Below, in pieces: positions 19,999 to 35,078 of a stretch of DNA of 64,000 bases (positions within the stretch are counted from its first letter, which is position 1; each line of letters begins with the position of its first letter). Under the pieces are notes generated by a model, which worked only from the letters and a program-made list of their open reading frames with translations, had not been told where the DNA came from and searched no databases. The stretch spans positions 687,717-751,716 of the forward strand of contig NZ_LMKK01000001.1 in assembly GCF_001421485.1 (NCBI RefSeq). The letters run 5' to 3'. The DNA is from Agreia sp. Leaf210 (GTDB taxonomy: Bacteria > Actinomycetota > Actinomycetes > Actinomycetales > Microbacteriaceae). The position numbers and the translations under genes were made by a program.

Positions 19999-20985
19999 CT
20001 ACCCGCTTCGCCCAGGAGGTGTCACTGCGCGGGCCGGCGCCTCCGGATCGCGATCTACCGAGGCCGGTTCGATCGGAGCATCCGTCTTCTCACTGCGCAC
20101 GAAGCCGATGCCCACCAGGATCAGGGCGCCACCGAGAAGTTGGGGCAGAGTCAGCTGCTCTCCGAGCAGCAGCCAGGCGTAGAACGTGGCCGCCACCACC
20201 TCGAGCAGGCCGACGAACGAGGCGAGTCTCGACCCGAGCATCTGGGTGGCGGTGATGCTCGTCGCGTAGGCGACCGCGGTCGAGACGACCCCGACGAGCA
20301 GCAATGGGAGCCACCATGGCGCCGCCGAGCCGAAGAAAGCGACGTCGTCGAACGTGACGGTGAACGGAACGAGACCCGTGAGGCCGACGGCGCCCAGTGC
20401 GAGGCCACCGATCACGAGGCCTGCAGCCGCGAGGGCGACCGGCGGGAGCCCGTCGTCGGGTCGCGCCGCGACGACGTAGTAAACGGCGCATCCCACCATT
20501 GCTGCGACGGCGAGCGCCAACCCGAGCACATCGAGACTCGCGGTGCCGCCCGGAGACACGACCATGACCAGGCCGACGAGCGCGACGACCGAGCCTATGA
20601 GAACGACGGCCTTGGGCATCCGGCGGGTGCGCGCCCAGGCGAAGGCGACGAGCAGCAGCGGCGCCATGTACTCGATGAGGATGCCCGTGCCCACGGGGAT
20701 GCGCTGGATGGCGGCGAAGTAGAGAAGCTGGGTTCCCGCGACACCGATGAGCGCCATGGCGAGCACCCGGCCCCGCGAGCGCCACAGCGCCGACCATCGG
20801 CCGCGCAGGGTCAGGATGGCGACGGGCGCCAGCACGACGCCGCCGACCAGCGCGCGTACGGTGACCGCCGCTGCGGGGCTCCAACCGGATTCGAGCAGGG
20901 GCTTCACGAGGGCGCCAGAGGTGCCGAACGTGGCCGCGGCGATGACGGCGATGACCAGACCTGCCGAGGTCGACGACCGTTGCAT
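19999..20985 (-). CDS. EamA/DMT family transporter
   Basis: A 328-residue inner-membrane protein with ten predicted helices in two EamA halves (FGTSGALVKPLLESGWSPAA in the first; FVGLLEVVAATFYAWLLLGE in the second, the classic C-terminal EamA block). It probably exports a metabolite or amino acid. Start at ATG 20985 after AAAGGGA; the frame continues upstream without support. Divergent from a CGNR zinc-finger regulator 72 bp away, which likely controls it. Confidence 0.9.
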   Translation of the reverse strand: MQRSSTSAGLVIAVIAAATFGTSGALVKPLLESGWSPAAAVTVRALVGGVVLAPVAILTLRGRWSALWRSRGRVLAMALIGVAGTQLLYFAAIQRIPVGTGILIEYMAPLLLVAFAWARTRRMPKAVVLIGSVVALVGLVMVVSPGGTASLDVLGLALAVAAMVGCAVYYVVAARPDDGLPPVALAAAGLVIGGLALGAVGLTGLVPFTVTFDDVAFFGSAAPWWLPLLLVGVVSTAVAYATSITATQMLGSRLASFVGLLEVVAATFYAWLLLGEQLTLPQLLGGALILVGIGFVRSEKTDAPIEPASVDRDPEAPARAVTPPGRSG

Positions 20986-21007
20986 GCGATTCCCTTTCAC
21001 CCTGCCG

Positions 21008-21036
21008 TTGAGATGCTCTGATCCAGACGCTAGTCT
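21008..21036 (+). promoter_or_regulatory. possible promoter of the CGNR regulator gene
   Basis: TTGAGA (21008-21013), 17-bp spacer, TAGTCT (21031-21036), within the 72-bp gap shared with the divergent EamA gene. The -10 match is weak. Confidence 0.35.
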
Positions 21037-21057
21037 CAGAATGAGTAAGGAGTCAAT

Positions 21058-21615
21058 TTGCATTTTGCCCCTGACACCGAAGACATTCTCGGCTTCATCG
21101 TCACCCTCGCAAATACGGTCGCCGGCGCCTCACGGAGCGGCGCCGACGAGGTCGGCACGCCCGCTCAGCTCACCGAGCTTCTCGACGCGAACGGCTACAC
21201 GGGCCGCTTCGACCGCGACGAGCGCGAACTCGCCGAGGTGCATCGAGTGCGCACGCAGCTCAGACACGTCTGGAGCCTCGACCGCGACGCGGCCGCGGTC
21301 GAGGTCAACGCCATGCTGAGGCAGACCCGGGCGCTCCCCCAGCTCGTTCGTCACGATGCACTCGACTGGCATCTGCACGCGTCTGAAGACGACGAGCCAC
21401 TCGCCGAGCGCATTCTCAGCGAGGCGTCGCTGGCCTTCGTCGACGTGATCCGCAGCGATGAGATGACCCGCCTGCGCACGTGCGGAGCCCCCGATTGCGA
21501 GGGGATCTTCGCCGACCTCTCGCGCAACGGATCGAAGAGGTTCTGCAGCGTGCGCTGCGGCAACCGGGTGAACATGATCGCCTTCCGCGAGCGCGCCGCG
21601 GCCGACAGCGCATAG
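21058..21615 (+). CDS. CGNR zinc finger (ABATE domain) transcriptional regulator
   Basis: A 185-residue putative stress-responsive regulator. An N-terminal ABATE ligand domain (residues 1-125) is joined to the C-terminal CGNR zinc finger: CGAPDCEGIF then FCSVRCGNRVNMIAFRER, four cysteines plus the CGNR signature for DNA binding. TTG start with AAGGAG 5 bases upstream; an ATG at 21041 is in another frame. Divergent from the EamA transporter, a common regulator-target layout. Confidence 0.88.
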   Translation: MHFAPDTEDILGFIVTLANTVAGASRSGADEVGTPAQLTELLDANGYTGRFDRDERELAEVHRVRTQLRHVWSLDRDAAAVEVNAMLRQTRALPQLVRHDALDWHLHASEDDEPLAERILSEASLAFVDVIRSDEMTRLRTCGAPDCEGIFADLSRNGSKRFCSVRCGNRVNMIAFRERAAADSA

Positions 21616-21618
21616 CCT
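21613..21618 (+). promoter_or_regulatory. -10 element, leaderless PPOX gene
   Basis: TAGCCT ends 6 bases before the ATG at 21625 and overlaps the stop of the CGNR gene. Confidence 0.45.
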
Positions 21619-21624
21619 GGGCGC

Positions 21625-22104
21625 ATGGCACGAACGATCTCCACCAATACCTCCGTCGACCGCCAGGGCATGCTCGAGTTCGTACGCCCCCGACACCGGA
21701 TGCTCGTCGCCACGACGCGCGCCGACGGCCGACCCCAGATGTCCCCGGTCTCGGGCGGCGTCGACGACGAGGGGCGCATTGTGATCTCGACGTATCCCGG
21801 TCGCGCGAAAACGCGCAATACCGAGCGGCGCTCGGAGGTCTCGGTGCTGGTGCTCTCCGACGACTGGAACGACGCGTGGATCCAGGTAGACGGCGATGCC
21901 GAAGTGCTGCACATGCCGGAGGCCGCAGACGCGCTCGTCGACTACTACCGGAGCATCTCGGGAGAGCACCCCGACTGGCCGGAGTACCGCGCCGCCATGG
22001 CGCTGCAGAACAAGTCGCTGCTGCGCATCACGCCCACCCGCTGGAGCCCTGTCTCGACCGGCGGGTTCCCCGCAGACGTCGCCGCCCGCCTCGACGGAGC
22101 TTGA
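21625..22104 (+). CDS. PPOX-class F420/flavin-dependent oxidoreductase
   Basis: A 159-residue split-barrel flavoprotein of the pyridoxamine-5'-phosphate-oxidase superfamily: RPRHRMLVATTRADGRPQMSPV, then VISTYPGRAKTRNTERRSEV and a C-terminal LRITPTRW. Actinobacterial members of this shape (TIGR03618-like) bind F420 and act in xenobiotic or quinone reduction. Leaderless, with TAGCCT at 21613-21618. A second PPOX protein occurs at 31432, on the other side of the DevR island. Confidence 0.87.
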   Translation: MARTISTNTSVDRQGMLEFVRPRHRMLVATTRADGRPQMSPVSGGVDDEGRIVISTYPGRAKTRNTERRSEVSVLVLSDDWNDAWIQVDGDAEVLHMPEAADALVDYYRSISGEHPDWPEYRAAMALQNKSLLRITPTRWSPVSTGGFPADVAARLDGA

Positions 22105-22152
22105 GCAGTGGTCGAGACCCTGTGCGGCGAAAAATCTGGTGCCGACGTCGTT

Positions 22153-22890
22153 CTACGCGAGCCCAGAGGCGCCGAGCAGTGCGCCCACACCGTAGGTGGC
22201 TGCTAACGCAAGGGCTCCACCGGTCACCACCCTCACAGTTGCTCGTGTCCTCGAGCTGCCTCCGATGTGTGCCGAAATCGCACCCGTGATCGCCAAGGCC
22301 ACGAGGACGGCGACGAACGTAACCGGGACCCTCCAATCTGCAGGCGGGAGCAGGATGGCGAGCATGGGCAGGATGGCGCCGATCGTGAACGCGACCGCCG
22401 AGGCCCCGGCGGCGTGCCATGGGCTGACGACGTCGCCCTCGTCGATGTTGAGCTCAGCCGAGAGGTGAGCAGCGAGGGCGTCGTGGTGCGTGAGCTCCTC
22501 GGCGACGCGGCGCGCGGTGGGCTCGCTGAGTCCCTTCGCGCGGTACAGCGAGGTGAGCTCTTCAAGCTCCTGAGCGGGCATGTCTCGAAGCTCATCGCGT
22601 TCCTTCTGGATCAGCGCATGCTCGCTGTCGCTCTGGCTGCTCACCGAGACGTACTCGCCCAAAGCCATTGAGATGGCGCCCCCGACCAGGCCGGCGACAC
22701 CAGCCGTCAGGATGGGGCCAGAATCGGCCGTGGCCCCGGCGACACCGACGACGATGGCGGCGACAGACACGATCCCGTCGTTGGCGCCAAGCACCCCGGC
22801 GCGCAGCCAGTTCAAGCGTTGCGCGATTCCTGTCTGGTGCGGTTCGTTCAGATGAGCATACGAGTGGTTCGAGCGGCCGGTGTCCATCAT
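22153..22890 (-). CDS. VIT1/CCC1 family iron or manganese transporter
   Basis: A 245-residue integral membrane protein with five helices: LRAGVLGANDGIVSVAAIVVGV opens the first, followed by SMALGEYVSVSSQSD, a cytoplasmic acidic loop (residues 90-150, metal-binding in the family) and three C-terminal helices. Start ATG 22890 overlaps the ATPase stop as ATGA. Last gene of the universal-stress-protein/ATPase/VIT operon; an Fe2+ or Mn2+ export or storage role in low-oxygen stress is inferred. Confidence 0.9.
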   Translation of the reverse strand: MMDTGRSNHSYAHLNEPHQTGIAQRLNWLRAGVLGANDGIVSVAAIVVGVAGATADSGPILTAGVAGLVGGAISMALGEYVSVSSQSDSEHALIQKERDELRDMPAQELEELTSLYRAKGLSEPTARRVAEELTHHDALAAHLSAELNIDEGDVVSPWHAAGASAVAFTIGAILPMLAILLPPADWRVPVTFVAVLVALAITGAISAHIGGSSRTRATVRVVTGGALALAATYGVGALLGASGLA

Positions 22891-25616
22891 CGCCATACCT
22901 TCGACTGTGTCAATCGACGCATCGAGCGGCGCATGTGCACCCGCTCGGCACCCTTGCCCGCCTCGGTGAGAACGAAGATGAGCACGGCGATCGCCGACGT
23001 GTAGGCCCACTCGCGGATACCGAGCGGCGCCGAATGAAACCACGGGTGCATGAACGGGGCATAGACGAATCCGAACTGCAGCAGAAGCAGGATGCCGCCC
23101 GAGACGTAGATCGCCCTGTTACCTCGCAGGGTGGCGAGCCGGAGGCTGGATGCGCGCAAGAAACGGCAGCTGAAGAGGAACGCGAGCTGCGCGAGGGTCA
23201 GCATGGTGACCGCGGTGGTCTGGGCTTCGGCGCTGCTCGACCCGATGGATTCTTCGTAGAAGAACACACCGATCGTCGCGGTCGTGATCAGGGCCGTGAC
23301 CCAGACGATTCGTGCGAAGTAGCTGCGATCGAGAATCCCCCTACTGAACCGTGTAGGCGGTCTCTGCATGATGCCCGGTTCGGCCGGTTCGGTCGCGAGT
23401 GCCAAAGACAGAGTGACGGCCGTGATCAGGTTGACCCAGAGGATCTGTGTGGCCTGCAAGGGCAGCGTGAATCCGATGACTACGGCAAGCAGAAGAACGA
23501 GCGCCTGGGCAGAGGTGGTGGGAAGTAGAAACAGGATCGACTTCTGGAGGTTGTCGCGGATGCGACGCCCTTCTTCGACAGCTCGTCCGATCGTGGCGAA
23601 GTTGTCGTCGGCCAGCACGATGTCGGCGGCCTCTTTTGTGGTCTCGGTGCCCTTGATGCCCATGGCCACACCGATATCGGCGCGGCGAAGGGCGGGGGCG
23701 TCGTTGACGCCGTCGCCGGTCATGGCCACGACCTGGCCTCGCGATTGCAGGGCCGTGACGATTCGGAGCTTGTGCTCCGGGCTTGTCCGCGCGTACACGT
23801 CGACGTCGGGTGCGGCCTCGGCGAGCTCCTCGTCGGTCATCCGGTGCACGACATCGCCCGTGAGCACCCGGGAACCTTCTTGGGCGATTCGCATCTCCAT
23901 CGCGATCGCCAGCGCGGTGCCGGGGTGGTCGCCGGTGATCATCTTCACGCGGATGCCGGCGGTATGCATGGTTTCGATTGCGGCGACGGCCTCGGCTCTC
24001 GGGGGGTCGAGGATGCCCGCCACTCCGAGAAAGACGAGTCCCGACTCGCAGTCGTCGGCGCTGAGTTGCTCGGAATCGGTGACGGTATCGGAGCGCGCTG
24101 CGGCCAGTACCCGGAGGCCTGTGGCGCTGAGGTCGTTTACGATTCGTTCCCACTCGGGCCTGTCGATCGGGCGCTTTACTCCGCCTGCCCCGAGCTCGTG
24201 GCTGCAGCGGTCGAGCACGACCCGCGGTGCTCCCTTGAGCAGAATTCGCGTGTCGCCACCGGCCTTGTGAGACGTGATCGCCATGAACTTGGCTTCGGCG
24301 GAGAAGGGAAGCACAGCATGACGCGAGTACGATGCGCCGTCGAAGCCGGCCTTTGCGGCCAGTGCCCGGAGCGCACCTTCGGTGGGGTCTCCGACGACCT
24401 GCCAGTCTTCGCCGGTGGAGGTGAGGTGCGCGTCGTTGCAGAGGGCGAACGCTTCGACGAGCGCATCGAGATCTGACCGATCCGTCGAGTCGTTGCCATC
24501 GGAATTGACGATCGCACCCTTCGGCGCGTATCCGGTTCCCTCGACGTCGTAGCGCGCAGCCGGGGTCACGGCCGTGCGAACGGTCATCTCGTTGCGGGTG
24601 AGTGTGCCGGTCTTGTCTGTACAGATCGTTGTCACCGAGCCCAGGGTCTCGACGGAACTGAGTGTGCGCACGATGGCCCTGCGGGAGGCCATCTGGCGCA
24701 CTCCGAGAGCAAGGGTGATCGTGACCAGGGCGGGAAGACCCTCTGGGATAGCGGCGACGGCGAATCCGATCGTCGCCGGAACCAGTTGACCGAGGCTGCT
24801 TCCGTGCAGGAGCCACCCGACCAACAACATGACGGCGGCGACGACCAGAATCAGAACCGAGATGCGTTTGCTGAAGGAGTTCAGCTGACGGGTAATGGGT
24901 GTGGCGGTGTTTCGTGTGGCGTTGACGAGCGAGTGGATTCGCCCGATTTCTGTGTCGAGCCCTGTCGCGGTAACGACAGCGGTTCCGTCGCCCGCCGTCA
25001 CGTGGGTACCGGAGAACAGCATGTCGTGCCGATCGCCGACTCCGCTGTCGGCATCGACGGAAGCGGCGTCTTTGTCCGCGGGAAGCGACTCGCCCGTGAG
25101 GGCTGATTCATCGATGCGGAGAAGATTCGCCTGAAGAATTCGAGCGTCGGCGGGTACCTTGTCGCCCGGTTCGACGCGCACGATGTCGCCGGCCACGAGG
25201 TCGGTGGCGTTGATGTTCGTCCATTCTTCCGCCCGTCTGGTCTTGGCGGTGAGCGACAGCATGGCTCGGATTCCGTCGAGCGCTTTCTGGGTGCGACCGT
25301 TTTGAATCAGGCCGACGATGGCGTTGATGACGGTCACGGCGAGAATCACGATCGCGTCGATCCAGTCGCCGATCAAGAAGGTGATGACCGCGGACGCGAG
25401 AAGAACGTAGATGAGGATGTCGTGGAACTGCCTCAGAAAGGTCAGGACGGGATTGGAGGGGCGCGCCTGAGGCAGCTCGTTGGGACCATCCACGACGAGA
25501 CGACGGGCCGCCTCATCGACGGACAAACCTGTGCGGTCGGTGGAAAGCTCATCGAGCATCTCGTCGCCCGTGCGGGAATAGGGCGACGCGTGTGAGCTTG
25601 GTGAAAGTCGGGTCAC
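22887..25616 (-). CDS. cation-translocating P-type ATPase (P2A type)
   Basis: A 909-residue ion pump. In order: N-terminal cation-ATPase domain (HASPYSRTGDEMLDELSTD), A-domain ALTGES, membrane PEGLP, phosphorylation motif ICTDKTGTLT, MTGDHPG, GDGVNDAPAL and ten helices. GTG 25616 overlaps the universal-stress-protein stop and fits the expected domain start; an ATG at 25559 would cut the N-terminal domain. In the M6 segment WVNLITAVTLSLAL the aspartate corresponding to SERCA Asp800 is Ala, so a classical calcium site is incomplete. Reminiscent of mycobacterial CtpF, a DosR-regulon pump next to a universal stress protein gene. Confidence 0.94.
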   Translation of the reverse strand: MTRLSPSSHASPYSRTGDEMLDELSTDRTGLSVDEAARRLVVDGPNELPQARPSNPVLTFLRQFHDILIYVLLASAVITFLIGDWIDAIVILAVTVINAIVGLIQNGRTQKALDGIRAMLSLTAKTRRAEEWTNINATDLVAGDIVRVEPGDKVPADARILQANLLRIDESALTGESLPADKDAASVDADSGVGDRHDMLFSGTHVTAGDGTAVVTATGLDTEIGRIHSLVNATRNTATPITRQLNSFSKRISVLILVVAAVMLLVGWLLHGSSLGQLVPATIGFAVAAIPEGLPALVTITLALGVRQMASRRAIVRTLSSVETLGSVTTICTDKTGTLTRNEMTVRTAVTPAARYDVEGTGYAPKGAIVNSDGNDSTDRSDLDALVEAFALCNDAHLTSTGEDWQVVGDPTEGALRALAAKAGFDGASYSRHAVLPFSAEAKFMAITSHKAGGDTRILLKGAPRVVLDRCSHELGAGGVKRPIDRPEWERIVNDLSATGLRVLAAARSDTVTDSEQLSADDCESGLVFLGVAGILDPPRAEAVAAIETMHTAGIRVKMITGDHPGTALAIAMEMRIAQEGSRVLTGDVVHRMTDEELAEAAPDVDVYARTSPEHKLRIVTALQSRGQVVAMTGDGVNDAPALRRADIGVAMGIKGTETTKEAADIVLADDNFATIGRAVEEGRRIRDNLQKSILFLLPTTSAQALVLLLAVVIGFTLPLQATQILWVNLITAVTLSLALATEPAEPGIMQRPPTRFSRGILDRSYFARIVWVTALITTATIGVFFYEESIGSSSAEAQTTAVTMLTLAQLAFLFSCRFLRASSLRLATLRGNRAIYVSGGILLLLQFGFVYAPFMHPWFHSAPLGIREWAYTSAIAVLIFVLTEAGKGAERVHMRRSMRRLTQSKVWR

Positions 25617-26518
25617 GGGGTGGGGTTGGCCGAATCGCGTCGCGGAACAATCACGACAGGGCTGTGTGCGTGCGCGGCGCATTCCGCGCTGACGGAGCCC
25701 AGCACCAGGCCGGCAAAACCGCCGTGTCCACGCGACCCGACCACGGTCATCCGGGCGCCCGTCGACGCCGTGATCAGAGCCTCGGCCGGCTGTGCGAGCG
25801 ATGCGACCAGGCTGACCTCGACGGTTGGGTGCGTACTGATCTGGTCGAGTGTTTCGGCGATGAGGTCTCGCTGCACGCGTCCAGTGACCTCTTCGAACGA
25901 AGAGACGTAGCCGAATTCTTCGCTGAACTGAGGGGGAATGCGGTCGAAGTTCCACGTACGGACGACTGTCACAGGAGATGACAGGATTTCGGCCGTGGTC
26001 AGTGCCCACTCGAGGGCGTCGTCGGCATTCTGCGATCCGTCGTGGCCGACGATGATTGGGGCATCGCCTTGATCATCGGCCACGGTATGGCTGTCGCGAA
26101 TAATCATGACCGGGCAGTGGGCATGGGCCGCGCACTGGGCGCTGACGGATCCCAGAACGAGTCCCGCGAATCCACCGTGACCACGGCTGCCAACGATGAG
26201 CAGATCTGCCGATCTGCTTTCTTTGACGAGGTCGCGTGCAGCGGATCCCTCGATGACGCGCCGCTCGTACCAGCCCGGCAGGTCAGGCCCAAAAACGGTG
26301 TGCGACGCTTCCACAAGCTGCGACTCGGCGTACTCGCCGGGCGACCACGCGAGAACGAAGGGGGTGTATGCGATCGGTGTGGTCCACACGGAAACCGCCT
26401 TGAGCTGGGCGTCCTGCTTCTCGGCGAGATATTTTGCGTGCCGTAAGGCCACGATGGAAGCAGCGGAGCCGTCGACGCCGACGACGATCAAAGCCTGGTG
26501 TTGTGCTGGTGTAGTCAT
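25613..26518 (-). CDS. universal stress protein, two tandem Usp domains
   Basis: A 301-residue cytosolic protein of two Usp domains (about 10-150 and 160-295). Each has the ATP-binding G-2x-G-9x-G-(S/T) motif as VGSRGHGGFAGLVLGSVS. The first domain begins IVVGVDGSAAS, the second IIVGHDGSQNADD. It leads an operon with the P-type ATPase (4-bp overlap) and VIT transporter. A DevR-like box is centred 42.5 bp upstream of the ATG, and the start looks leaderless. Role by family: dormancy or hypoxia adaptation. Confidence 0.94.
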   Translation of the reverse strand: MTTPAQHQALIVVGVDGSAASIVALRHAKYLAEKQDAQLKAVSVWTTPIAYTPFVLAWSPGEYAESQLVEASHTVFGPDLPGWYERRVIEGSAARDLVKESRSADLLIVGSRGHGGFAGLVLGSVSAQCAAHAHCPVMIIRDSHTVADDQGDAPIIVGHDGSQNADDALEWALTTAEILSSPVTVVRTWNFDRIPPQFSEEFGYVSSFEEVTGRVQRDLIAETLDQISTHPTVEVSLVASLAQPAEALITASTGARMTVVGSRGHGGFAGLVLGSVSAECAAHAHSPVVIVPRRDSANPTP

Positions 26519-26553
26519 GAACTAACAGTGCGCTGATCGTCGGGGGCACGGTA

Positions 26554-26567
26554 GGGCACAAGGTCCT
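26554..26567 (-). promoter_or_regulatory. candidate DevR/DosR box, stress-protein/ATPase/VIT operon
   Basis: Minus strand AGGACCTTGTGCCC matches the mycobacterial half-site pattern GGGAC-N4-GKCCC. Its centre is 42.5 bp before the A of the ATG at 26518. CACTGT lies at the -10 position if transcription begins at the ATG. Confidence 0.65.
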
Positions 26568-27526
26568 CACCTGTCAGAGCAGAGTAACCACGCCGTGGCG
26601 ATCCCTTGCGTTCGGTGTGAAAAGGCACGCCGCCGCATGGGCAGTGTGTCGTGGATGACGACCGTGGCGCCGTTGAGGTTCAGGAGGACATCGTGAGCGA
26701 TGGATCCCACTGTTCCGGGCAGGCTCACATTGCGATGGGAGCGACCGATGACGAGAAGGGATGCCGCGGCCGAAGCGTCGATCAGACCCTCGGCGGCTGG
26801 CCGGCGCACGCTTCTGGTGCGCACGAGAATCTGTGGCTGGGCCTTCATTGCGATGGTCTGGGCCTCCGCGAGGACCGCATCTGAGAACAGTGCCCCGAAC
26901 CGCGCCCTCTCCTCTTGCCTGTCGTGAGCCAGCGCAGCAGGCTTCCGAGACATATCCCAGCAGTGCACGATCGTGAGTTCGTGACCGGTTCGAGCAGCCT
27001 CGGCGGCGGCGAAACAGATCGTCTCGTGCTCTGCTGCCGCATCGGAGACTCCCACGACGATTCCTCCTCGACGTCGCGTAGAGACGTTGGGAATGAACGC
27101 GACGGGGCTAGATGCCCGCGCCGCGAGTTGGATGAACTTGGATCCGAAGATTCGGCCCTGCACGAACCCGGTTTTATGAGTGCCGATCGCGAGCATGACC
27201 ATGTGTTCCGACGCCGCGGCGAGTTGTTCGAGAGGATCGCCTTGGAGTAGCGATGAGGAGACCGACACCCCGTGCTCGATGAGGTGAGCAAAGTCGACTT
27301 CCGCCTGCAGGAACGCGTGTTCGGTCTCGGTGATCTCGGCGGACATGTGCGCCGGCGGCGCGGTCATCACGTCTTCGACGATGTGGGCGAGAACCACACT
27401 GGCACCAGTCAGCGCAGCTCTGTGCATGCTCCAACGGATGGCGGATCGGCTCGGTGACGACCCGTCGACGCCGACGACGATCGACTGCCCGGCGTGCATG
27501 TTCACATTGTGTGCGGTGGGACTCAT
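26567..27526 (-). CDS. universal stress protein, two Usp domains, degenerate ATP motifs
   Basis: A 319-residue tandem Usp protein. Domain 1 begins SIVVGVDGSSPSRSAIRWS and ends LAIGTHKTGFVQGRIFGS; domain 2 has IVVGVSDAAAEHE and LVIGRSHRNVSLPGTVGS. The Gly spacing of the nucleotide motif is less regular than in its neighbour. Start at ATG 27526, supported by a DevR-like box centred 42.5 bp upstream; the frame runs on to 27754 without support. Divergent from devS, so the 143-bp gap serves both. Confidence 0.9.
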   Translation of the reverse strand: MSPTAHNVNMHAGQSIVVGVDGSSPSRSAIRWSMHRAALTGASVVLAHIVEDVMTAPPAHMSAEITETEHAFLQAEVDFAHLIEHGVSVSSSLLQGDPLEQLAAASEHMVMLAIGTHKTGFVQGRIFGSKFIQLAARASSPVAFIPNVSTRRRGGIVVGVSDAAAEHETICFAAAEAARTGHELTIVHCWDMSRKPAALAHDRQEERARFGALFSDAVLAEAQTIAMKAQPQILVRTRSVRRPAAEGLIDASAAASLLVIGRSHRNVSLPGTVGSIAHDVLLNLNGATVVIHDTLPMRRRAFSHRTQGIATAWLLCSDR

Positions 27527-27561
27527 GCCTGAATCGTGGCACTGGGATCGCGCTCCTGGCA

Positions 27562-27575
27562 GAGTCGAAGGTCCC
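27562..27575 (-). promoter_or_regulatory. candidate DevR/DosR box, second universal stress protein gene
   Basis: Minus strand GGGACCTTCGACTC (GGGAC-N4-GNCNC), centre 42.5 bp before the ATG at 27526. CACGAT occupies the -10 position of a leaderless start. Confidence 0.6.
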
Positions 27576-27669
27576 AACCGTGAATGCACGCGGTCCCGGG
27601 GCGTACCCTGTGAAAGCCGGGCTCTGCACCGTACGGGCTTGGCGCGACATGATCCGAGGTGTTTCACCG

Positions 27670-29385
27670 ATGACCGACGACGACTCGTTGACCTTTCCCG
27701 ACAAGCAGCGCGGTGATATCGACATCGCCCTCGACGATCTCGTCGAAAAAGCACACGACGGTCTCACGACGGAGAGTCGCCTCCGCGCGCTTCTCAAGGC
27801 GAACCAGGCTGTCGTCGAGCAACTCGACCTCCCGGTGGTTCTCCGACGAATCGTCGAAGCGGCTGTCGAACTCGTCGGCGCCCAGTACGGCGCCCTTGGC
27901 GTCGTCGCACCCTTCGGGGGTCTCGATCAATTCATCCACGTCGGAATGGGCGAGGGAGACGTGGAGAAGATTGGGCATCTCCCTGAGGGTCGCGGACTTC
28001 TGGGAGCGCTCATCGATGATCCCGCGCCGATTCGTCTCAACAAGATCGCCGACGAGTCGCGGTCGTCGGGATTTCCTCACGGTCATCCCCCCATGGACAG
28101 CTTTCTGGGGGTGCCGGTACGGGTGCGCGACGAGGTCTACGGCAATCTCTACCTCACCAATCAGGCCACGGGCCACTTCAGTGGTGAAGACGAACGACTT
28201 GTCACGGCGTTGGCCGCAACAGCCGGTATCGCGATTGAGAACGCTCGTCTTTTCGCCGAGACGAAGCGACGCCAGGCCTGGTCTGCCGCGTCTGCAGAGA
28301 TCACGGCGGCGCTGCTGTCCGGCGAACGGGAAGATTCGATGTCGCTCATCGTCAACCGTGTGCTGGGACTCTCGGGCGCCGACCTGGTGTGCGTACTTCT
28401 CCCAACGGACGTATCAGAGACGCTCGTCATTCAGACCGCGCTGGGACTCAGTGATGACGATCTCCAGGGTGCCCGTGTCGCGGTTGCGAGTTCGATTTCC
28501 GGGTCGGTGATCGAGGGCCGGCAACCGCGTCTGCTGGATGACAGCAACACTCCTCTTCCCGGTGGCGTGATTCTGGGCCCCGTTATGGCGGTGCCCCTGA
28601 TCTCCGCAGGACAGGCAGAGGGAGTCCTGTTTCTTGCACGTGCCCAAGGGGGTGCACTGTTCTCGACTGCCGACCTCGAGATGGCTGCCGATTTCGCCGG
28701 CCAGGCCAGCGTCTCTATGCAGCTGGGTAAGGCGCGCGCCGACCGGCAGCGATTGTTACTGCTCGAGGATCGCGGACGAATCGCCCGTGATCTGCACGAC
28801 CATGTGATCCAAGAGATCTTCGGGACGGGCCTTGAATTGCAGAGCATCGCCGGACGCATCGGAGACCGCCACCTGGAGGACCGGATTGTTCAGTCTGTTG
28901 GAAACCTCGATGCCACGATCTCGCAGATTCGAACCGTGATCTTCGCACTCTCGGCTCCCTCTACGAAGTCGCAGGACACAATCCGGCACTCCATCATCGA
29001 TGTTGTGAACGAACTGGCTCCCAGCCTGCGAAGCACCCCCTACGTCAGTTTCTCCGGACCGGTCGACTTACTCGTCACCGGAAGCCTCGCGGGTGATGTG
29101 ATCGCCGTTGCGCGTGAGGCCTTAACCAATACGGCGAAACATGCAGCTGCGGAACACACGTCCGTGTCATTGGCGGCTCTGGACGGCTACATCCTTCTCG
29201 AAGTCACCGACGACGGAACGGGAGCATCCGAAACCGGGAGGCGAAGCGGGCTGGCGAATCTTGAGAAGCGAGCGCAGCTTCGCGGAGGCACAGCCGAGTT
29301 CGTGTCCGACGATACGGGCACGACCGTACGGTGGCGTGTGCCCTACTCGGTGTCGAGAGACATCCCGAAAGCTCGCCTGTCATGA
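27670..29385 (+). CDS. devS: DevS/DosS-like redox sensor histidine kinase
   Basis: A 571-residue soluble kinase. GAF-A (about 50-195) includes FPHGHPPMDSFLGVPVRVRD; His139 of HPPM matches the haem-ligating His149 of mycobacterial DevS, so gas or redox sensing by haem is likely. GAF-B spans about 205-355. The HisKA_3 domain has RIARDLHDHVIQEI with phospho-acceptor His376; the HATPase domain shows EALTNTAKHA and DDGTG. ATG 27670 follows GAGG at 10 bases; upstream extension has no support. Overlaps devR by 4 bp. Confidence 0.92.
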   Translation: MTDDDSLTFPDKQRGDIDIALDDLVEKAHDGLTTESRLRALLKANQAVVEQLDLPVVLRRIVEAAVELVGAQYGALGVVAPFGGLDQFIHVGMGEGDVEKIGHLPEGRGLLGALIDDPAPIRLNKIADESRSSGFPHGHPPMDSFLGVPVRVRDEVYGNLYLTNQATGHFSGEDERLVTALAATAGIAIENARLFAETKRRQAWSAASAEITAALLSGEREDSMSLIVNRVLGLSGADLVCVLLPTDVSETLVIQTALGLSDDDLQGARVAVASSISGSVIEGRQPRLLDDSNTPLPGGVILGPVMAVPLISAGQAEGVLFLARAQGGALFSTADLEMAADFAGQASVSMQLGKARADRQRLLLLEDRGRIARDLHDHVIQEIFGTGLELQSIAGRIGDRHLEDRIVQSVGNLDATISQIRTVIFALSAPSTKSQDTIRHSIIDVVNELAPSLRSTPYVSFSGPVDLLVTGSLAGDVIAVAREALTNTAKHAAAEHTSVSLAALDGYILLEVTDDGTGASETGRRSGLANLEKRAQLRGGTAEFVSDDTGTTVRWRVPYSVSRDIPKARLS

Positions 29386-30041
29386 TCCGCGTTTTTCTCG
29401 TAGATGACCACGAACTCGTCCGCCGAGGCATAGCCGGCCTCCTCGAACTCGAAGAAGACATCGCGGTAATCGGCGAAGCCGGCACTGTCAGCCAGGCGGA
29501 GTCACGCATCAGGGCGACACAACCAGACGTGGTTCTTCTCGACGTGAGGTTGCCCGATGGCAGCGGCATCGACGTGTGCCGGAACGTGCGATCGGAAAAC
29601 CCTTCTCTTCAGTGCCTCATCTTGACGGCGTATGACGATGATGGAGCCATCGACGCGGCTGTCCTCGCCGGGGCGGCAGGCTATGTACTCAAAGATGTGC
29701 GCGGAAGTGGCCTCGTTGAGACCCTGCGGAAGGTCGCGGCGGGCCAACAGCTTCTCGACCCGGTCCTGACGCGAAAGGTGGTGGAGCGAATCATCGTGGC
29801 GCCGCCCGGTGACGCCCGACTCGACTCCTTGACCGCACGGGAGAGGCAAATCCTGACACTCATCGCGGATGGGATGACGAACAGAGAGATCGGGGTCGAA
29901 CTCTCACTCGCTGAAAAGACCGTCAAGAATTATGTGTCTGGATTACTCAGCAAGCTGGGACTGCAGCGCCGCACCCAGGCCGCGATTCTTCATCTCGAAT
30001 CTCACCCAACGGGTATCCGCACCACCGACGACAAGCTGTAG
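29382..30041 (+). CDS. devR: DevR/DosR-like response regulator, LuxR type
   Basis: A 219-residue NarL/FixJ-type regulator. Receiver domain residues 1-120: acidic DD at 8-9, phospho-acceptor Asp54 in VVLLDVRLPDGSG (the same number as DevR of Mycobacterium), Lys in GYVLKD. The LuxR helix-turn-helix (about 150-210) reads LTARERQILTLIADGMTNREIG then LAEKTVKNYVSGLLSKLGL. ATG overlaps the devS stop. It probably activates the nearby stress-protein genes through the GGGAC-N4-GNCCC boxes. Confidence 0.95.
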   Translation: MIRVFLVDDHELVRRGIAGLLELEEDIAVIGEAGTVSQAESRIRATQPDVVLLDVRLPDGSGIDVCRNVRSENPSLQCLILTAYDDDGAIDAAVLAGAAGYVLKDVRGSGLVETLRKVAAGQQLLDPVLTRKVVERIIVAPPGDARLDSLTARERQILTLIADGMTNREIGVELSLAEKTVKNYVSGLLSKLGLQRRTQAAILHLESHPTGIRTTDDKL

Positions 30042-30115
30042 AAATCAATCAGGTCGCGTGCCGCCGTCGAGCGGGCCGAGTCTCGACTTCTGGATAAAAC
30101 CCGGTCCACAAGCAG

Positions 30116-30129
30116 AGGACCAAAGACCC
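30116..30129 (+). promoter_or_regulatory. candidate DevR/DosR box, third universal stress protein gene
   Basis: AGGACCAAAGACCC, centre 42.5 bp before the ATG at 30165, the same distance as the two other boxes. GAATCT sits at the expected -10 position of a leaderless transcript. Confidence 0.65.
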
Positions 30130-30164
30130 TGTCGGTCCACCGTGCGAGGTGCGAATCTGGCCTC

Positions 30165-30776
30165 ATGACCACCTCACAGACTCCCCCCTCGAGCCAGGGC
30201 ACCGCCGAAAGGGGGGACCAAGACGTCGACGGACGGGCGTCTCGGTTCGGAGTCGATGGCACCGGGGTCGCGACGGATGACTACAACAGATCGATCGAAT
30301 TCGATGCCGGCTCACGCCCGCCTGTTCATCCCAGAACAACTCGAATCGTTGTCGGCCTCGACGGGTCTGCTGCCTCGCTCGGCGCGCTTAGCCGAGCAGT
30401 CAAGATAGCGACCGCCATGAACGCAACCGTCCAGGGCGTCATCGCCTGGAGCCTGCCGAGTGAGTGGAGCCTGCCGAGCATCTATGGCAACTACGGCCTG
30501 GCGAACTGGTCGCCCGAATCGGACTCCCAGCAGATGATGGCCGCAGCGGTATCGACCACGTTCGAAGGCAACACGCCGACGTGGTTCATACCGACGATCC
30601 GGCAAGGCAATCCAGCCGAGATCCTGATCGACGAAAGCAGAGGCGCAGAGATGCTCATCGTCGGCTGTCGCGGGCACGGCGGCTTCGCCGGGCTCCTGCT
30701 CGGCTCCGTCAGCATGGCCTGCGCCGCGCACGCACACTGCCCGGTGCTCATCATGCACGACGACGACGACCGTTGA
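30165..30776 (+). CDS. universal stress protein, single Usp domain with N-terminal extension
   Basis: A 203-residue protein. The first 60 residues are a polar, probably disordered extension; the Usp domain begins TRIVVGLDGSAASLGAL and carries the ATP motif VGCRGHGGFAGLLLGSVS. It follows devR by 123 bp and has its own DevR-like box centred 42.5 bp before the ATG. Likely a member of the DevR regulon. Confidence 0.93.
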   Translation: MTTSQTPPSSQGTAERGDQDVDGRASRFGVDGTGVATDDYNRSIEFDAGSRPPVHPRTTRIVVGLDGSAASLGALSRAVKIATAMNATVQGVIAWSLPSEWSLPSIYGNYGLANWSPESDSQQMMAAAVSTTFEGNTPTWFIPTIRQGNPAEILIDESRGAEMLIVGCRGHGGFAGLLLGSVSMACAAHAHCPVLIMHDDDDR

Positions 30777-30845
30777 TGCCGTAACACCACGCGCTTCATC
30801 GAGAGCCGCTCCGATCCATTCACGTCAACAGAAACGAGATTCACC

Positions 30846-31430
30846 ATGACCGCACAAACTGTCCAGCCCACCGTCCATCCCCGGCACGACGCTGCTCATC
30901 GAGACCTGACTAAGGCAAACGCGGTCAGCTCGACCACCGGCAGGCGCGTGCTCGCGACCCTGCGCCTGGCGACAGGATTCATCTTTCTCTGGGCCTTCAT
31001 CGACAAACTCTTAGGACTGGGATTCTCCACACCCACCGAACGGGCATGGATCAATGGGGGCACACCGAGTCAGGGGTTTCTCAACAGTCCTGCCGTCGTG
31101 GGCCCGCTGAAACCGTTCTTCGCGGCGATCGCGAGCCCCACGACCGACGTGCTGTTCATGCTCGGAATGCTTGCCATCGGCGTCGCCGTCATGCTCGGAA
31201 TAGGCCTGCGCATCAGCGCCGTCGCGGGCACGGTCATCATGCTCTTTATGTACCTCGCTGAGTGGCCGTTCGGGGCCGATGCCGAGTCCACCAATCCCCT
31301 GGTCGATTACCACATCATCTATGCCCTCGCTCTGATCACCGTCGCAGCGCTCTCGGCGGGAGACACGTGGGGCCTCGGACGAACATGGAAAAGCCTCCCG
31401 CTCGTGCAGAAGAACCGTTGGCTGGTCTGA
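30846..31430 (+). CDS. DoxX family membrane protein
   Basis: A 194-residue membrane protein with four helices: ATLRLATGFIFLWAFIDKLLGLGF, a loop with an INGGTPSQGFL segment, then helices around residues 90-115, 120-140 and 155-180. DoxX-type proteins sit in the membrane and are linked to quinone or thiosulfate redox chemistry and oxidative stress. One base separates it from the PPOX gene, so they form a pair. No DevR box was seen at the distance found for the stress-protein genes, but it may read through from 30165. Confidence 0.87.
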   Translation: MTAQTVQPTVHPRHDAAHRDLTKANAVSSTTGRRVLATLRLATGFIFLWAFIDKLLGLGFSTPTERAWINGGTPSQGFLNSPAVVGPLKPFFAAIASPTTDVLFMLGMLAIGVAVMLGIGLRISAVAGTVIMLFMYLAEWPFGADAESTNPLVDYHIIYALALITVAALSAGDTWGLGRTWKSLPLVQKNRWLV

Positions 31431-31431
31431 C

Positions 31432-31887
31432 ATGGTCATGCTCGCCAAAGACTTCCAAGAATGGTCACCACAAGGGACCGTTACCGAGCTATCCGTCGAC
31501 CACTGCTGGGAACGGCTGGCCGGTTCGAACATCGGACGACTCGGACTGATCATCGACAACAAGCCGGAGATCTTCCCCGTCAACTACATCGCTGACGGGC
31601 ACACGATCGTGTTCAGAACGGCGCATGGAACCAAATACGAGAGCCTGACTACGGGAGCTCCCGTGGTTTTCGAAGTTGACGAGCGGCTGACGCACGGCGG
31701 CTGGAGCGTCGTCCTGAAAGGACCAGCAGTCGTCCTGGGCCCCGACATTCCAGAATCGTCGCCCAGTGATCATCACCCGCCGATGTGGGTGGCCGCAGCA
31801 GGATATATGTATGTCCGTCTCACCCCGCAGGAGATTCGTGGACGCGAGTTCGAAGGGCAAGTGCGAATCATCTATCCGAACAACTGA
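31432..31887 (+). CDS. pyridoxamine 5'-phosphate oxidase family (flavin-binding) protein
   Basis: A 151-residue split-barrel protein. LSVDHCWERLAGSNIGRLGLI opens the domain and PEIFPVNYIADGHTIVFRTA is the FMN-binding signature. These small PPOX proteins are typical of actinobacterial low-oxygen regulons, and this one ends the DevR-like island after DoxX. The substrate is unknown. Confidence 0.87.
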   Translation: MVMLAKDFQEWSPQGTVTELSVDHCWERLAGSNIGRLGLIIDNKPEIFPVNYIADGHTIVFRTAHGTKYESLTTGAPVVFEVDERLTHGGWSVVLKGPAVVLGPDIPESSPSDHHPPMWVAAAGYMYVRLTPQEIRGREFEGQVRIIYPNN

Positions 31888-31919
31888 GGAATCGCGACAC
31901 TCATCCGGATCTTCGGCGA

Positions 31920-32483
31920 TCAGAGAATCCCGAGGTGGTCGAGCAGGATCCGGGTGCCGATGATGATCAGGATGAGCCCGCCGGCTATCTCCGCCGGGCG
32001 GCGGAACTTCACTCCCGCCCGGTGGCCGATCACGATTCCGGCGAAGGTGAGAACGAAGGTCGTCGCGGCGATGAGCACCGCCGTCTCGGTGATCGAGATC
32101 GCCAGGAAGGCGAACGACAAGCCCACCGCGAGCGCGTCGACACTCGTGGCCACCGAGAGCACCAGAAGCTCCCTGAGCTTCAGCCTGTCGTCGATCTCGG
32201 TGTCCTCCGGGTTCGAGAACGCCTCCCACAGCATCTTTCCGCCGATCAGTCCGAGGAGAACGAAGGCGACCCAGTGGTCGATCCCCGTGATGTACGACGC
32301 GAACTGCGTGCCGAGAAACCATCCGATGACGGGCATGACGCCCTGAAACAGCCCGAACGCGGCGGCGATGATGAGCGCGTTGCGCAGATTGAAGCGACGC
32401 ATGTGCAGGCCCTTGCCGAGCGCGACAGCGAACGCGTCGGCCGAGACTCCGAGCGCGACGAAGAAGACAGACCAGAGGGCCAT
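31920..32483 (-). CDS. mntP: manganese efflux pump MntP
   Basis: A 187-residue inner-membrane exporter with six helices. Each half carries the family motif with acidic residues in the membrane: VSADAFAVALGKGL in helix 1 and ATSVDALAVGLSFA in helix 4. AAAGG precedes the ATG. The 101-bp upstream gap was checked for a yybP-ykoY manganese riboswitch and none was recognised. Not obviously coupled to the AI-2E transporter gene upstream. Confidence 0.94.
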   Translation of the reverse strand: MALWSVFFVALGVSADAFAVALGKGLHMRRFNLRNALIIAAAFGLFQGVMPVIGWFLGTQFASYITGIDHWVAFVLLGLIGGKMLWEAFSNPEDTEIDDRLKLRELLVLSVATSVDALAVGLSFAFLAISITETAVLIAATTFVLTFAGIVIGHRAGVKFRRPAEIAGGLILIIIGTRILLDHLGIL

Positions 32484-32584
32484 GCGATGGGAGACCTTTC
32501 ACGACGAACAAGCAATACGCTGCTCGCCGTTGAGGCTTCAAGAATGCCAGGCCGCCTTCCCGCTCACGGCTCAGAATCCGCGAT

Positions 32585-33700
32585 TCACGGCTTTTCGGGC
32601 TGCCTAACGGCCGGGGCTGGGGTGCGCGGCGCGTCGTCGTTCCAGGTCTTGACGATGGCCCATCCGACGGCGGCGATCGGAACGGCCAGCACGGCACCGG
32701 TGATGCCACCGAGGATCGTGCCGGCGGTGAGGGCGACCAGGATCACGAGGGGGTGCAGCTTCAGCGACTGCGCCATGACCACGGGCTGGAGGAAGTTGCC
32801 CTCGAGCTGATTGACGACCACGACGATGAGGACCACGATGAGGGCGACCACGGGTCCGTTCGCCACGAGAGCGACCAGGGCGGCGAGGATTCCCGCGGCG
32901 GTCGCACCAACGATCGGGATGAAGGCGGTGACGAACACGATCACCGCGAGCGGCAGCGCGAGGGGAACCCCGAGGATAGCGAGGCCGATGCCGATGCCGG
33001 CCGCATCGACAAAGGCGATGATGGCCGTTCCGCGAACATAGCCGCCGAGAACGCGCACCGCGGTGGCACCGATCCGCTCGCCACGGGCCTTGCGGTGGCC
33101 TCGGAAAGGCCGCAGGAAGAACGCCCAGATCGTCGGGCCGTCTTTGAGGAAGAAGAACAGGATGACGACGGCCAGCGCCGCGCCCGTGGCCAGTTCACCG
33201 ACGACGGATGCGCCGGCGAGGGCACCCGATCCGGCCTGGCTGCTCGTCGCGAAATCGATGAGCGCCTGCTTGGCCGACTCGATCTGCGATTCATCGACGG
33301 GAATGGGGCCGTTCGTGATGAAGTTCTGCAGCTGATCGAGGCCGTCCTTGGCCGACGACGCCAATGTGTCCCACTGGCCGCGCACGGCGAAGACGATGAG
33401 CGTGACGAGGCCGCCGATCACCAGAATGCCCGCGAGCAGGGTGAGCCAGGTCGCGAGAATCGCCGACATGCCGCGCTTCTTGAGGAACCGCATGACGGGA
33501 GATGCCGCCGCCGCGATGATGAGTGCGATCAGCACGGGAATCACCACGAGCTTCAGCTGCACGAGTGCGAACACCACGATCACGGCCAATGCCAGAACGA
33601 TGATGATCTGGCCACTGCGAATGGCCAGCGCTCCCATCTTGTCGGTGAGCAGGGAACGCAAAGACGGAGTAGCCGAGGGCTCACCAGAGGGAACGGTCAT
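32585..33700 (-). CDS. AI-2E family transporter (PerM type)
   Basis: A 371-residue membrane protein with eight helices in the usual two clusters, the cytoplasmic-loop motif FLKDGPTIWAFFLRPF and the conserved C-terminal PLVILVALTAGTILGGITGAVLAVP pieces. Substrate of most members is unclear; some act as Na+/H+ antiporters. ATG 33700 chosen because TAGGGT lies 6 bases upstream (leaderless); GTG 33706 would be inside that promoter. Divergent from the broken MFS gene 51 bp away. Confidence 0.9.
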   Translation of the reverse strand: MTVPSGEPSATPSLRSLLTDKMGALAIRSGQIIIVLALAVIVVFALVQLKLVVIPVLIALIIAAAASPVMRFLKKRGMSAILATWLTLLAGILVIGGLVTLIVFAVRGQWDTLASSAKDGLDQLQNFITNGPIPVDESQIESAKQALIDFATSSQAGSGALAGASVVGELATGAALAVVILFFFLKDGPTIWAFFLRPFRGHRKARGERIGATAVRVLGGYVRGTAIIAFVDAAGIGIGLAILGVPLALPLAVIVFVTAFIPIVGATAAGILAALVALVANGPVVALIVVLIVVVVNQLEGNFLQPVVMAQSLKLHPLVILVALTAGTILGGITGAVLAVPIAAVGWAIVKTWNDDAPRTPAPAVRQPEKP

Positions 33701-33706
33701 ATACAC

Positions 33707-33712
33707 ACCCTA
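33707..33712 (-). promoter_or_regulatory. -10 element, leaderless AI-2E transporter gene
   Basis: Minus strand TAGGGT ends 6 bases before the ATG at 33700. Confidence 0.45.
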
Positions 33713-33739
33713 GGGAAAGATCGGATATTGCCATCCCCC

Positions 33740-33745
33740 TAGACT
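33740..33745 (+). promoter_or_regulatory. -10 element, leaderless MFS gene
   Basis: TAGACT ends 6 bases before the GTG at 33752. Confidence 0.45.
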
Positions 33746-33751
33746 TGGCCG

Positions 33752-35078
33752 GTGTCGACCAGCCCAGATCTTCCGCGCCGGGCGTCGGCCGCCTCTGCCC
33801 GAGCCGGTGGCCGAGCGCTCGCTCTCGTCGGCATCGTGCTCGTCGCCGTCAATCTGCGCACCGCCGTAGCCGCGCTGTCGCCGATCTTCTCCCAGATCAG
33901 CGTCGACGTTCCCGTCGACAGCGTGGGCGTGGGGCTCTTGGGAACCCTCCCCCCCTCTCTGCTTCGCGGTCTTCGGGCTGCTCGCGCCCGCGCTCAAGAG
34001 GCACCTGCGCCTCGAGACGCTGCTCATCGCGGCGCTCGGCGCCATCCTGATCGGGCACCTCGCGCGTGGTCTCGCGCCGAACTACGCCGTCCTCGCCCTC
34101 GCGAGCGTGCTCACCTTCGCGGGAATGGGCGTCGCGAACGTCGTCCTTCCGCCCATCGTCAAGAAGTACTTCCCGACATCGATCGGCACGCTCACCTCGC
34201 TGTACGTCACGATCATGGCGCTGTTCAGCCTGATCCCACCGCTCGTCGCCGTGCCTATCGCCGATTCGCTCGGGTGGCGTCTCAGCGTCTCGATGTGGGC
34301 AGCGCTGGCCGCGGTGGCGATCATTCCCTGGCTCATGCTCTGGATGCGCGACCGCCGGGCGACTGCCGCGGCGACGCGGGCGGCCACGGCGGCGGCCGGG
34401 CCCGCGGCATCCGGATCGCCCTCGGACGCCGGCCTTCTGCCGGAGATCTCACCGGCGGTGGCCGGGCGTGTCTGGCGCTCACCGCTGGCCTGGTCGATGG
34501 GCCTGCTCTTCGGCACGACGAGCCTCAACGTCTACGCTGCCTTCGCCTGGCTTCCCGAGCTGCTCACCGACCTCGCCGGCGTCTCCCCCGCGCAGGCCGG
34601 CGTTCTGCTCTCGCTCTACGCCGGCATGGGCATTCCGTTCTCGCTCGCCGTGCCCGTTCTCGCGAGCCGGATGCGATCGGTCGCGCCGCTGATCGCGCTC
34701 GGCTTCGTCTGCTTCGCGGCCGGATATCTCGGGCTGCTCTTCGCTCCGGCCGCGCTCCCCTGGATCTGGGTGGCTCTCGTCGGCGCCGGGCCGCTGACGT
34801 TCCCTCTCGTGCTCGTTCTGGTGGGGCTCCGAAGCCGCACGCCGGAGGGGACCGTCGCGCTCAGCGGATTCACACAGGGCGTGGGCTACGCGCTCGGGGC
34901 ACTGGGACCGCTGCTCGTCGGCGTTTTGCACGAGCTCTCTGGCGGCTGGACCGCACCCCTCGCCTTCCTGCTGCTCACCCTCGTCGTCATCGCCGTCGCG
35001 GGCCGAGTGGTCGCACGGCCCCGGATGCTCGAAGACGACTGGCACCGCACGACCCGCGACGAAGACCCTCAGCGGTGA
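33752..35078 (+). pseudogene. MFS transporter, CynX/NimT family, frameshifted in a C7 run
   Basis: Two consecutive frames together encode one 441-residue, 12-helix CynX/NimT-type transporter. The first (from GTG 33752) gives VNLRTAVAALSPIFSQI and LLGTLPP; the rest, CFAVFGLLAPALKRHLRLE through GMGVANVVLPPIVKKYFP to the C-terminus at 35078, is one base ahead. Removing one C from the seven-C run at 33949-33955 joins them as TLPPLCFAVFGLLAP, exactly the family consensus. Causes could be a real mutation, homopolymer length switching, or a sequencing error. Downstream the frame is intact with normal codon use, so any inactivation is recent. Confidence 0.85.

Follow-up and report, generated by a model that had tools for sequence, protein, structure and literature searches.

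We analysed a window of 64,000 nt from Agreia sp. Leaf210 (RefSeq assembly GCF_001421485.1, contig NZ_LMKK01000001.1, positions 687,717 to 751,716 of the forward strand); coordinates below are those of the window. It holds an island of nine genes, among them devS and devR for a sensor kinase and a response regulator, with three predicted DevR boxes upstream of universal stress protein (USP) genes. We think it quite probable (roughly 85%) that this island is a self-contained DevS–DevR (DosS–DosR) regulon, most likely acquired in a single piece, that would work by the mechanism proposed below.

Genes and predicted promoters of the island

The features of the island are as follows.

22109..31918, no strand: whole island, ∼9.8 kb; ends uncertain by ∼10 bp
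22153..22896, minus strand: VIT family transporter (Pfam VIT1, 8.1e-69, for an N-terminally longer version; the frame is open from ATG 22896)
22887..25616, minus strand: P-type ATPase, nearest P2A/Ca type (Pfam; TIGR01522 618.7 bits, cut-off 798.3)
25613..26518, minus strand: USP1, tandem USP of 301 aa (Pfam Usp, two stretches)
26525..26530, minus strand: candidate −10 element CACTGT of the USP1 promoter (A at −11, T at −7)
26554..26567, minus strand: predicted DevR box 1, AGGACCTTGTGCCC, centre at −42.5 from the USP1 ATG
26567..27526, minus strand: USP2, tandem USP of 319 aa (Pfam Usp, two stretches)
27533..27538, minus strand: candidate −10 element CACGAT of the USP2 promoter
27562..27575, minus strand: predicted DevR box 2, GGGACCTTCGACTC, centre at −42.5 from the USP2 ATG
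27670..29385, plus strand: devS, GAF-GAF-HisKA_3-HATPase sensor kinase of 571 aa (His139 in HPPM, Tyr161, His376)
29382..30041, plus strand: devR, NarL-type response regulator of 219 aa (Asp54, recognition helix AEKTVKNYVS)
30116..30129, plus strand: predicted DevR box 3, AGGACCAAAGACCC, centre at −42.5 from the USP3 ATG
30153..30158, plus strand: candidate −10 element GAATCT of the USP3 promoter
30165..30776, plus strand: USP3, single-domain USP of 203 aa (Pfam Usp)
30846..31430, plus strand: DoxX/DoxD-like membrane protein (weak DoxD match of 19.5 bits against a cut-off of 22.7)
31432..31887, plus strand: PPOX-like flavoprotein (Pfam Pyridox_ox_2), 1 nt after the DoxX gene

An initial annotation of this DNA had placed nine genes here, and reading frames and Pfam matches bear out its gene calls, including the VIT transporter, the PPOX protein, His139 in the HPPM motif of DevS and Asp54 of DevR. 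Two of its names hold in part. The ‘P2A ATPase’ is a P-type ATPase by Pfam, nearest the P2A/Ca type, with a TIGR01522 score under the cut-off; the ‘DoxX’ protein is DoxX/DoxD-like at a weak level, its DoxD match being below the Pfam cut-off (homologues 70–77% identical occur in the stretches of four of nine relatives). The described coupling of the ATPase to a stress-protein gene is present, as the GTG start of the ATPase gene overlaps the USP1 stop codon (GTGA, 25613–25616). The VIT gene, whose start overlaps the ATPase end, is the final gene of this USP1–ATPase–VIT run, and devS and devR overlap as well (ATGA). Given these overlaps and the 1-nt gap between the DoxX and PPOX genes, four promoters could suffice for the nine genes: judged from the layout, three with boxes and one for devSR.

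The three boxes, each said to be centred 42.5 bp before a USP start codon, and the three proposed −10 candidates were found exactly as annotated; the columns of these −10 candidates are conserved in the family sites described below. All three boxes in the Agreia sp. Leaf210 genome have the leaderless layout. Box 2 sits between USP2 and devS, in activating geometry for USP2 only. Of the boxes, described as GGGAC-N4-GNCNC-like, box 1 breaks the strict consensus (A at position 1, T at position 10) and box 3 begins with A.

The genome scan advised in the initial annotation was run with consensus patterns over 3.54 Mb. The literal pattern turned out too loose for a genome-wide test (91 matches against 268 for the reversed control) and by itself proves nothing, because it is common and rarer than its reversed control. 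RKGACYWWNKNCYCT, a sharper consensus devised once the window boxes and those of relatives had been seen, has four matches, of which three are the island boxes; its reversed control has five, and therefore the place of the matches, not their number, is informative. The fourth match, at C2:7385, lacks a −10 in the expected place. The pattern GGACYWWNNNCYC followed by 20–49 nt and ATG has 13 matches (control 18), with a 35-nt spacer only in the three island sites. The third match to RGGACYWWNGNCYC (three matches, control 15), at C1:190147, lies inside a frame that encodes CBM_48 and alpha-amylase domains; we regarded it as a chance match.

DevS, DevR and the promoter layout in Microbacteriaceae

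The best PDB match of DevR is M. tuberculosis DevR (3c3w, 7.4e-61; the next is VraR, 1.6e-41), and the two are identical across AEKTVKNYVS. DevS matched best the GAF domain 2vzw (7.9e-45), which we take to be that of DosT, and then DevS GAF domains; DevS/DosT ATPase domains were matched too. In an alignment of 41 proteins (window and 40 relatives), His139, Tyr161 and His376 of DevS are invariant, as are Asp9, Asp54, Thr82, Tyr101, Lys104, Lys179, Lys182 and Asn183 of DevR; Asp8 and Thr198 of DevR are kept in 40 of 41. The roles that we assume for the conserved residues (haem ligand, distal Tyr, kinase, phosphoacceptor, DNA contact) are those of the tuberculosis literature. The locus thus has the traits of a DevR orthologue (Asp54, DevR-type recognition helix, 3c3w match) and of a DevS kinase (domain order, HPPM haem ligand, distal Tyr), along with predicted DevR boxes in the −35 region upstream of USP-type targets. 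From its residues and domains, DevS is a probable haem gas sensor.

DevS relatives (E ≤ 1e-60) were found in 124 of 398 Microbacteriaceae genomes and in 47 of 85 genera. A search of 396 of these genomes for the box followed by 34 nt and ATG (box+34N+ATG) gave 85 sites in 46 genomes and 28 genera; the reversed pattern gave eight, counted from the list of matches. Genomes with such a site made up 40 of 123 with devS and 6 of 273 without (Fisher p = 5.8e-17, uncorrected for kinship), and 79 of the 85 sites lie in devS-positive genomes. Within the spacer, which the search left unconstrained, A stands at −11 in 72 sites and T at −7 in 79; both occur together in 71 of 85, against 0–5 at any other offset; with each genus reduced to a single site, the pair is present in 25 of 28. 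C precedes the start codon in 62 sites. A−11 and T−7 are the predicted −10 element of a leaderless promoter, with the A of ATG as the first transcribed base. Leaderless mRNAs are common in mycobacteria (PMC8022548). The constancy of the box distance had been put forward as a sign of real activator sites; recurrence of the geometry in 28 genera and its association with devS back this claim for what are predicted binding sites.

We also examined 41 devS neighbourhoods (780,726 bp), namely the window stretch and 40 relatives chosen among the stronger of the 124 devS-positive genomes. They contain 48 strict boxes and no match to the reversed pattern; ANNNT stands at the exact offset in 35 of the 48 and in 0–4 elsewhere, no start codon being required. 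Loosening the box gives 96 matches (2 for the reversed pattern), with a −10 at the offset in 60 and in up to 12 at other offsets. Among boxes with a −10 in the relatives' neighbourhoods, ATG is at +1 in 12 of 35 strict and 23 of 60 looser cases. The invariant is the distance from box to predicted −10, kept even where the gene starts further away; ATG at +1 is frequent without being universal. Spacers were also tallied for 80 devS-positive genomes, 49 of which gave 120 matches, a few boxes being counted in more than one match (control 8, counted). The histogram peaks at 34 nt (30 of 120) and 26 nt (18); 10 matches fall at 35 nt, and the remaining 27 spacers average 2.3. The 26-nt peak fits an ATG that would be formed by T−7 and G−6 of the −10 element itself.

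The 85 family sites and box 1 make 86 places, at 70 of which a frame of at least 60 codons begins at the ATG; one duplicate was dropped and 69 frames, including the three of the window, were scanned with Pfam. The 16 shorter frames were left out of the scan; some of these sites may be due to chance or serve another start. Among the best 25 of 28 families, the scanned sites include 28 Usp, 7 Pyridox_ox_2, 5 BON, 2 phosphoketolase, 2 nitroreductase and 2 flavodoxin matches, with single matches to alcohol dehydrogenase, Kinase-PPPase, Band 7 and others. This list resembles the OsdR/DevR target lists in PMC5069765. The phosphoketolase-type genes with the leaderless box layout belong to genomes G254 (L097) and G034 (L098) and were assigned by reading their sequences; a low-oxygen carbon route under DevR-type control is possible in these two genomes. 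Two divergent sites of the −42.5 layout stand back to back at G220:C9:392541-392671 and again at G372:C26:505295-505411.

Presence, absence and origin of the block

The flanks of the island (20000–22100 on the left, 31900–34000 on the right) were sought in eight genomes of the genus, seven of them relatives. In five relatives (G238, G313, G140, G278 and G077) the flanks are adjacent, separated by 31–37 bp as judged by DNA matches and by 22–32 bp in a finer alignment. Homology with these empty sites ends at 22096–22108 and resumes at 31918–31920. The junction lies between a PPOX-like gene and mntP, which are convergent; this PPOX-like gene (PNPOx_N, 21625–22104) belongs to the conserved flank, outside the block. 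The word ‘island’ in the initial annotation is thus more literal than was meant. In genome G192 the flanks are separated by about 1.65 kb of different DNA (G192:C1:673809-675459), and the site may accept insertions repeatedly; in G343 the flank searches gave weak matches only. No 9-mer is common to the two ends (160 bp against 140 bp), direct or inverted. There is no tRNA in the window and no Rfam match at the island, and a PHROGs scan of six proteins added nothing.

The simplest reading of these sequence comparisons is that the block was probably gained by transfer, the direction of which we infer. It is unlikely, in our judgement, that the ancestor of the genus had the block and that the relatives cleanly lost it. 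Vertical inheritance with loss is thinkable when 47 of 85 family genera have devS, and two other members of the genus carry it, with proteins 46% and 61% identical to DevS of the window (the 46% copy, of G140, is elsewhere in that genome). Against this stand the five relatives with flanks 20–40 bp apart and no remnant of the block, and the GC content of the block, 0.630 compared with 0.663 for the rest of the window. Moreover, rpoB is 95.3% identical in DNA to that of G077 and G140 (∼3,510 bases), 90.5% to that of G343 and ∼87% to that of Subtercola (∼2,560 bases each), yet the nearest DevS found is from Subtercola (78–79% protein identity), those of genus members being at most 61% identical.

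The Subtercola genome G007 has the same USP1–USP2–devS–devR–USP3 order (60–84% identity) and boxes at −42.5 for USP1 and USP2. The Subtercola neighbourhoods differ from the island in that the ATPase and VIT genes are unmatched in the four stretches compared and the DoxX and PPOX genes lie further away. Because the five-gene order is shared and the ATPase and VIT genes are unmatched, the block may be a mosaic. Contig C20 of Subtercola G372 shows boxes of the −42.5 layout elsewhere in the genome too.

Proposed mechanism, alternatives and related systems

In the proposed mechanism, His139 in the first GAF domain would be the haem ligand of DevS, and loss of O2 or binding of nitric oxide (NO) or carbon monoxide would lead the kinase to phosphorylate DevR at Asp54. 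A dimer of phosphorylated DevR would bind the 14-bp inverted repeat centred at −42.5, overlapping and replacing the −35 element (class II activation), while RNA polymerase would occupy a −10 element of the weak NANNNT type. The A of ATG would be the first base transcribed, which would yield leaderless USP mRNAs, and the three promoters would drive USP1–ATPase–VIT, USP2 and USP3–DoxX–PPOX. The products might stabilise the non-growing, low-oxygen cell by USP signalling, ion and iron/manganese balance, and redox functions.

Several observations weigh against this reading of a self-contained, transferred regulon. The right half of box 1 is imperfect. As 83 of 123 devS-positive genomes lack a box+34N+ATG match, the leaderless −42.5 arrangement is one layout, not a rule; six devS-negative genomes hold a match, four with a −10, where devS may be below the cut-off or the match due to chance. 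Of the 91 frames near devS that resemble USP genes, 19 have their best-scoring box at a distance of 42.5 bp from a possible start; these 19 include the window's own three and one that is probably chance. Outside the family, eight strict boxes were found in five of six other actinobacterial genomes, with a −10 at the offset in two of the seven examined in context, and none of the looser boxes in 12 distant devS loci has one; the geometry is not established outside Microbacteriaceae and the evidence is, if anything, against it. No box in activating geometry for devS was found in the window, and 2 of 41 devS loci have one. Autoregulation of devRS through boxes, which we took as a trait of the mycobacterial system and not as defining the DevRS family, is therefore not supported by the predicted sites here, and devSR may be made without DevR in Agreia sp. 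Leaf210. Finally, a mobile element would be expected to have a precise empty site, its own recombinase and repeats; the first is present, but no recombinase, integrase or transposase family was found among the nine island proteins (Pfam), nor any terminal or target-site repeats at the island.

Half-sites of NarL-family regulators resemble one another, and the boxes might serve another NarL/LuxR-type regulator with DevSR a bystander, as the six of 85 sites in devS-negative genomes would allow. We consider this very improbable in view of the strong association of boxes with devS and their nearness to it, the identity of AEKTVKNYVS with tuberculosis DevR and the resemblance of the consensus to the published DevR/OsdR element. 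That the equal spacing is a coincidence could be argued from the Agreia sp. Leaf210 genome, with its mere three sites; it is refuted by the family data, in which 28 genera share the spacing and, although the search did not ask for it, the position of the −10, and by the histogram peak at 34 nt. It also seems doubtful that DevS senses redox state or a ligand other than O2 or NO. The roles of DevS and DosT do differ in the mycobacterial literature, but the haem ligand and distal Tyr are conserved here and the first GAF domain is nearest to that of DosT, an oxygen sensor.

A regulon of the DevS–DevR type is a known kind of system. The initial annotation had stressed a condensed DosR regulon outside mycobacteria; the island is of the DevRS type by sequence and is condensed, but the kind is not new, since OsdKR of Streptomyces coelicolor, a functional DevRS orthologue outside mycobacteria, was described in 2016 (PMC5069765). 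Here it comes in compact form, with an exact promoter layout in the family and as a discrete present/absent block. With M. tuberculosis DevRS/DosRST the island shares homology of DevR and of the haem-GAF DevS, the box consensus, USP targets and a start-proximal box that overlaps the −35 region of the promoter (PMC3029386). It differs in its devS–devR order, single kinase gene, three box promoters found, lack of a box placed to activate devS, absence of hspX, tgs1 and nitrate genes from the block, and non-mycobacterial host. The USP1–ATPase pair may parallel the USP gene adjoining a P2A ATPase gene in M. tuberculosis (Rv1996–ctpF).

OsdKR, as reported in PMC5069765, is alike in type of binding element and in that USP and PPOX genes under its control are grouped around the regulator genes; it differs in that 43 predicted sites in 27 units are spread genome-wide, mostly as GGGCC-type boxes, at +36 to −391. 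Its PPOX gene SCO0214 (site at −50 in a table of that paper) may have the same −42.5 layout. We found no paper joining ‘DosR’ and ‘Microbacteriaceae’ in a search that most subscription literature lay outside, so that absence from print is unproven.

The evidence is evenly poised on a further proposal, that a complete dormancy regulon passes from species to species as a unit (sensor, regulator, sites and targets together) and works on arrival. It could do so because leaderless class II promoters would need only a weak −10 beside the box; and because the genome has one other match to the sharpened box, the type of box sought, and that one is without the promoter geometry, a recipient would acquire the entire response with no need for rewiring. 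The island offers a minimal model of a dormancy switch outside mycobacteria, with one kinase, one regulator and three promoters, and the fixed box/−10 geometry would make prediction of DevR targets in Microbacteriaceae a nearly exact search. The empty sites allow a clean test: if the regulon is self-sufficient, the block should confer the response in a sister species.

DevS homologues (E ≤ 1e-60, all with <60% identity) occur on 26 of 72,556 plasmid records, 15 of them from Rhodococcus and six from Streptomyces; kinases of the DevS type on these records suggest wider mobility. Contig C2 of G285 (212,902 bases; L175-L177) bears four box+34N+ATG sites and apparently corresponds to plasmid NZ_CP014514.1 of Frondihabitans sp. 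PAMC 28766, on which a DevS homologue (46%) occupies the matching position; contig C2 would thus carry a putative plasmid-borne regulon of the DevRS type.

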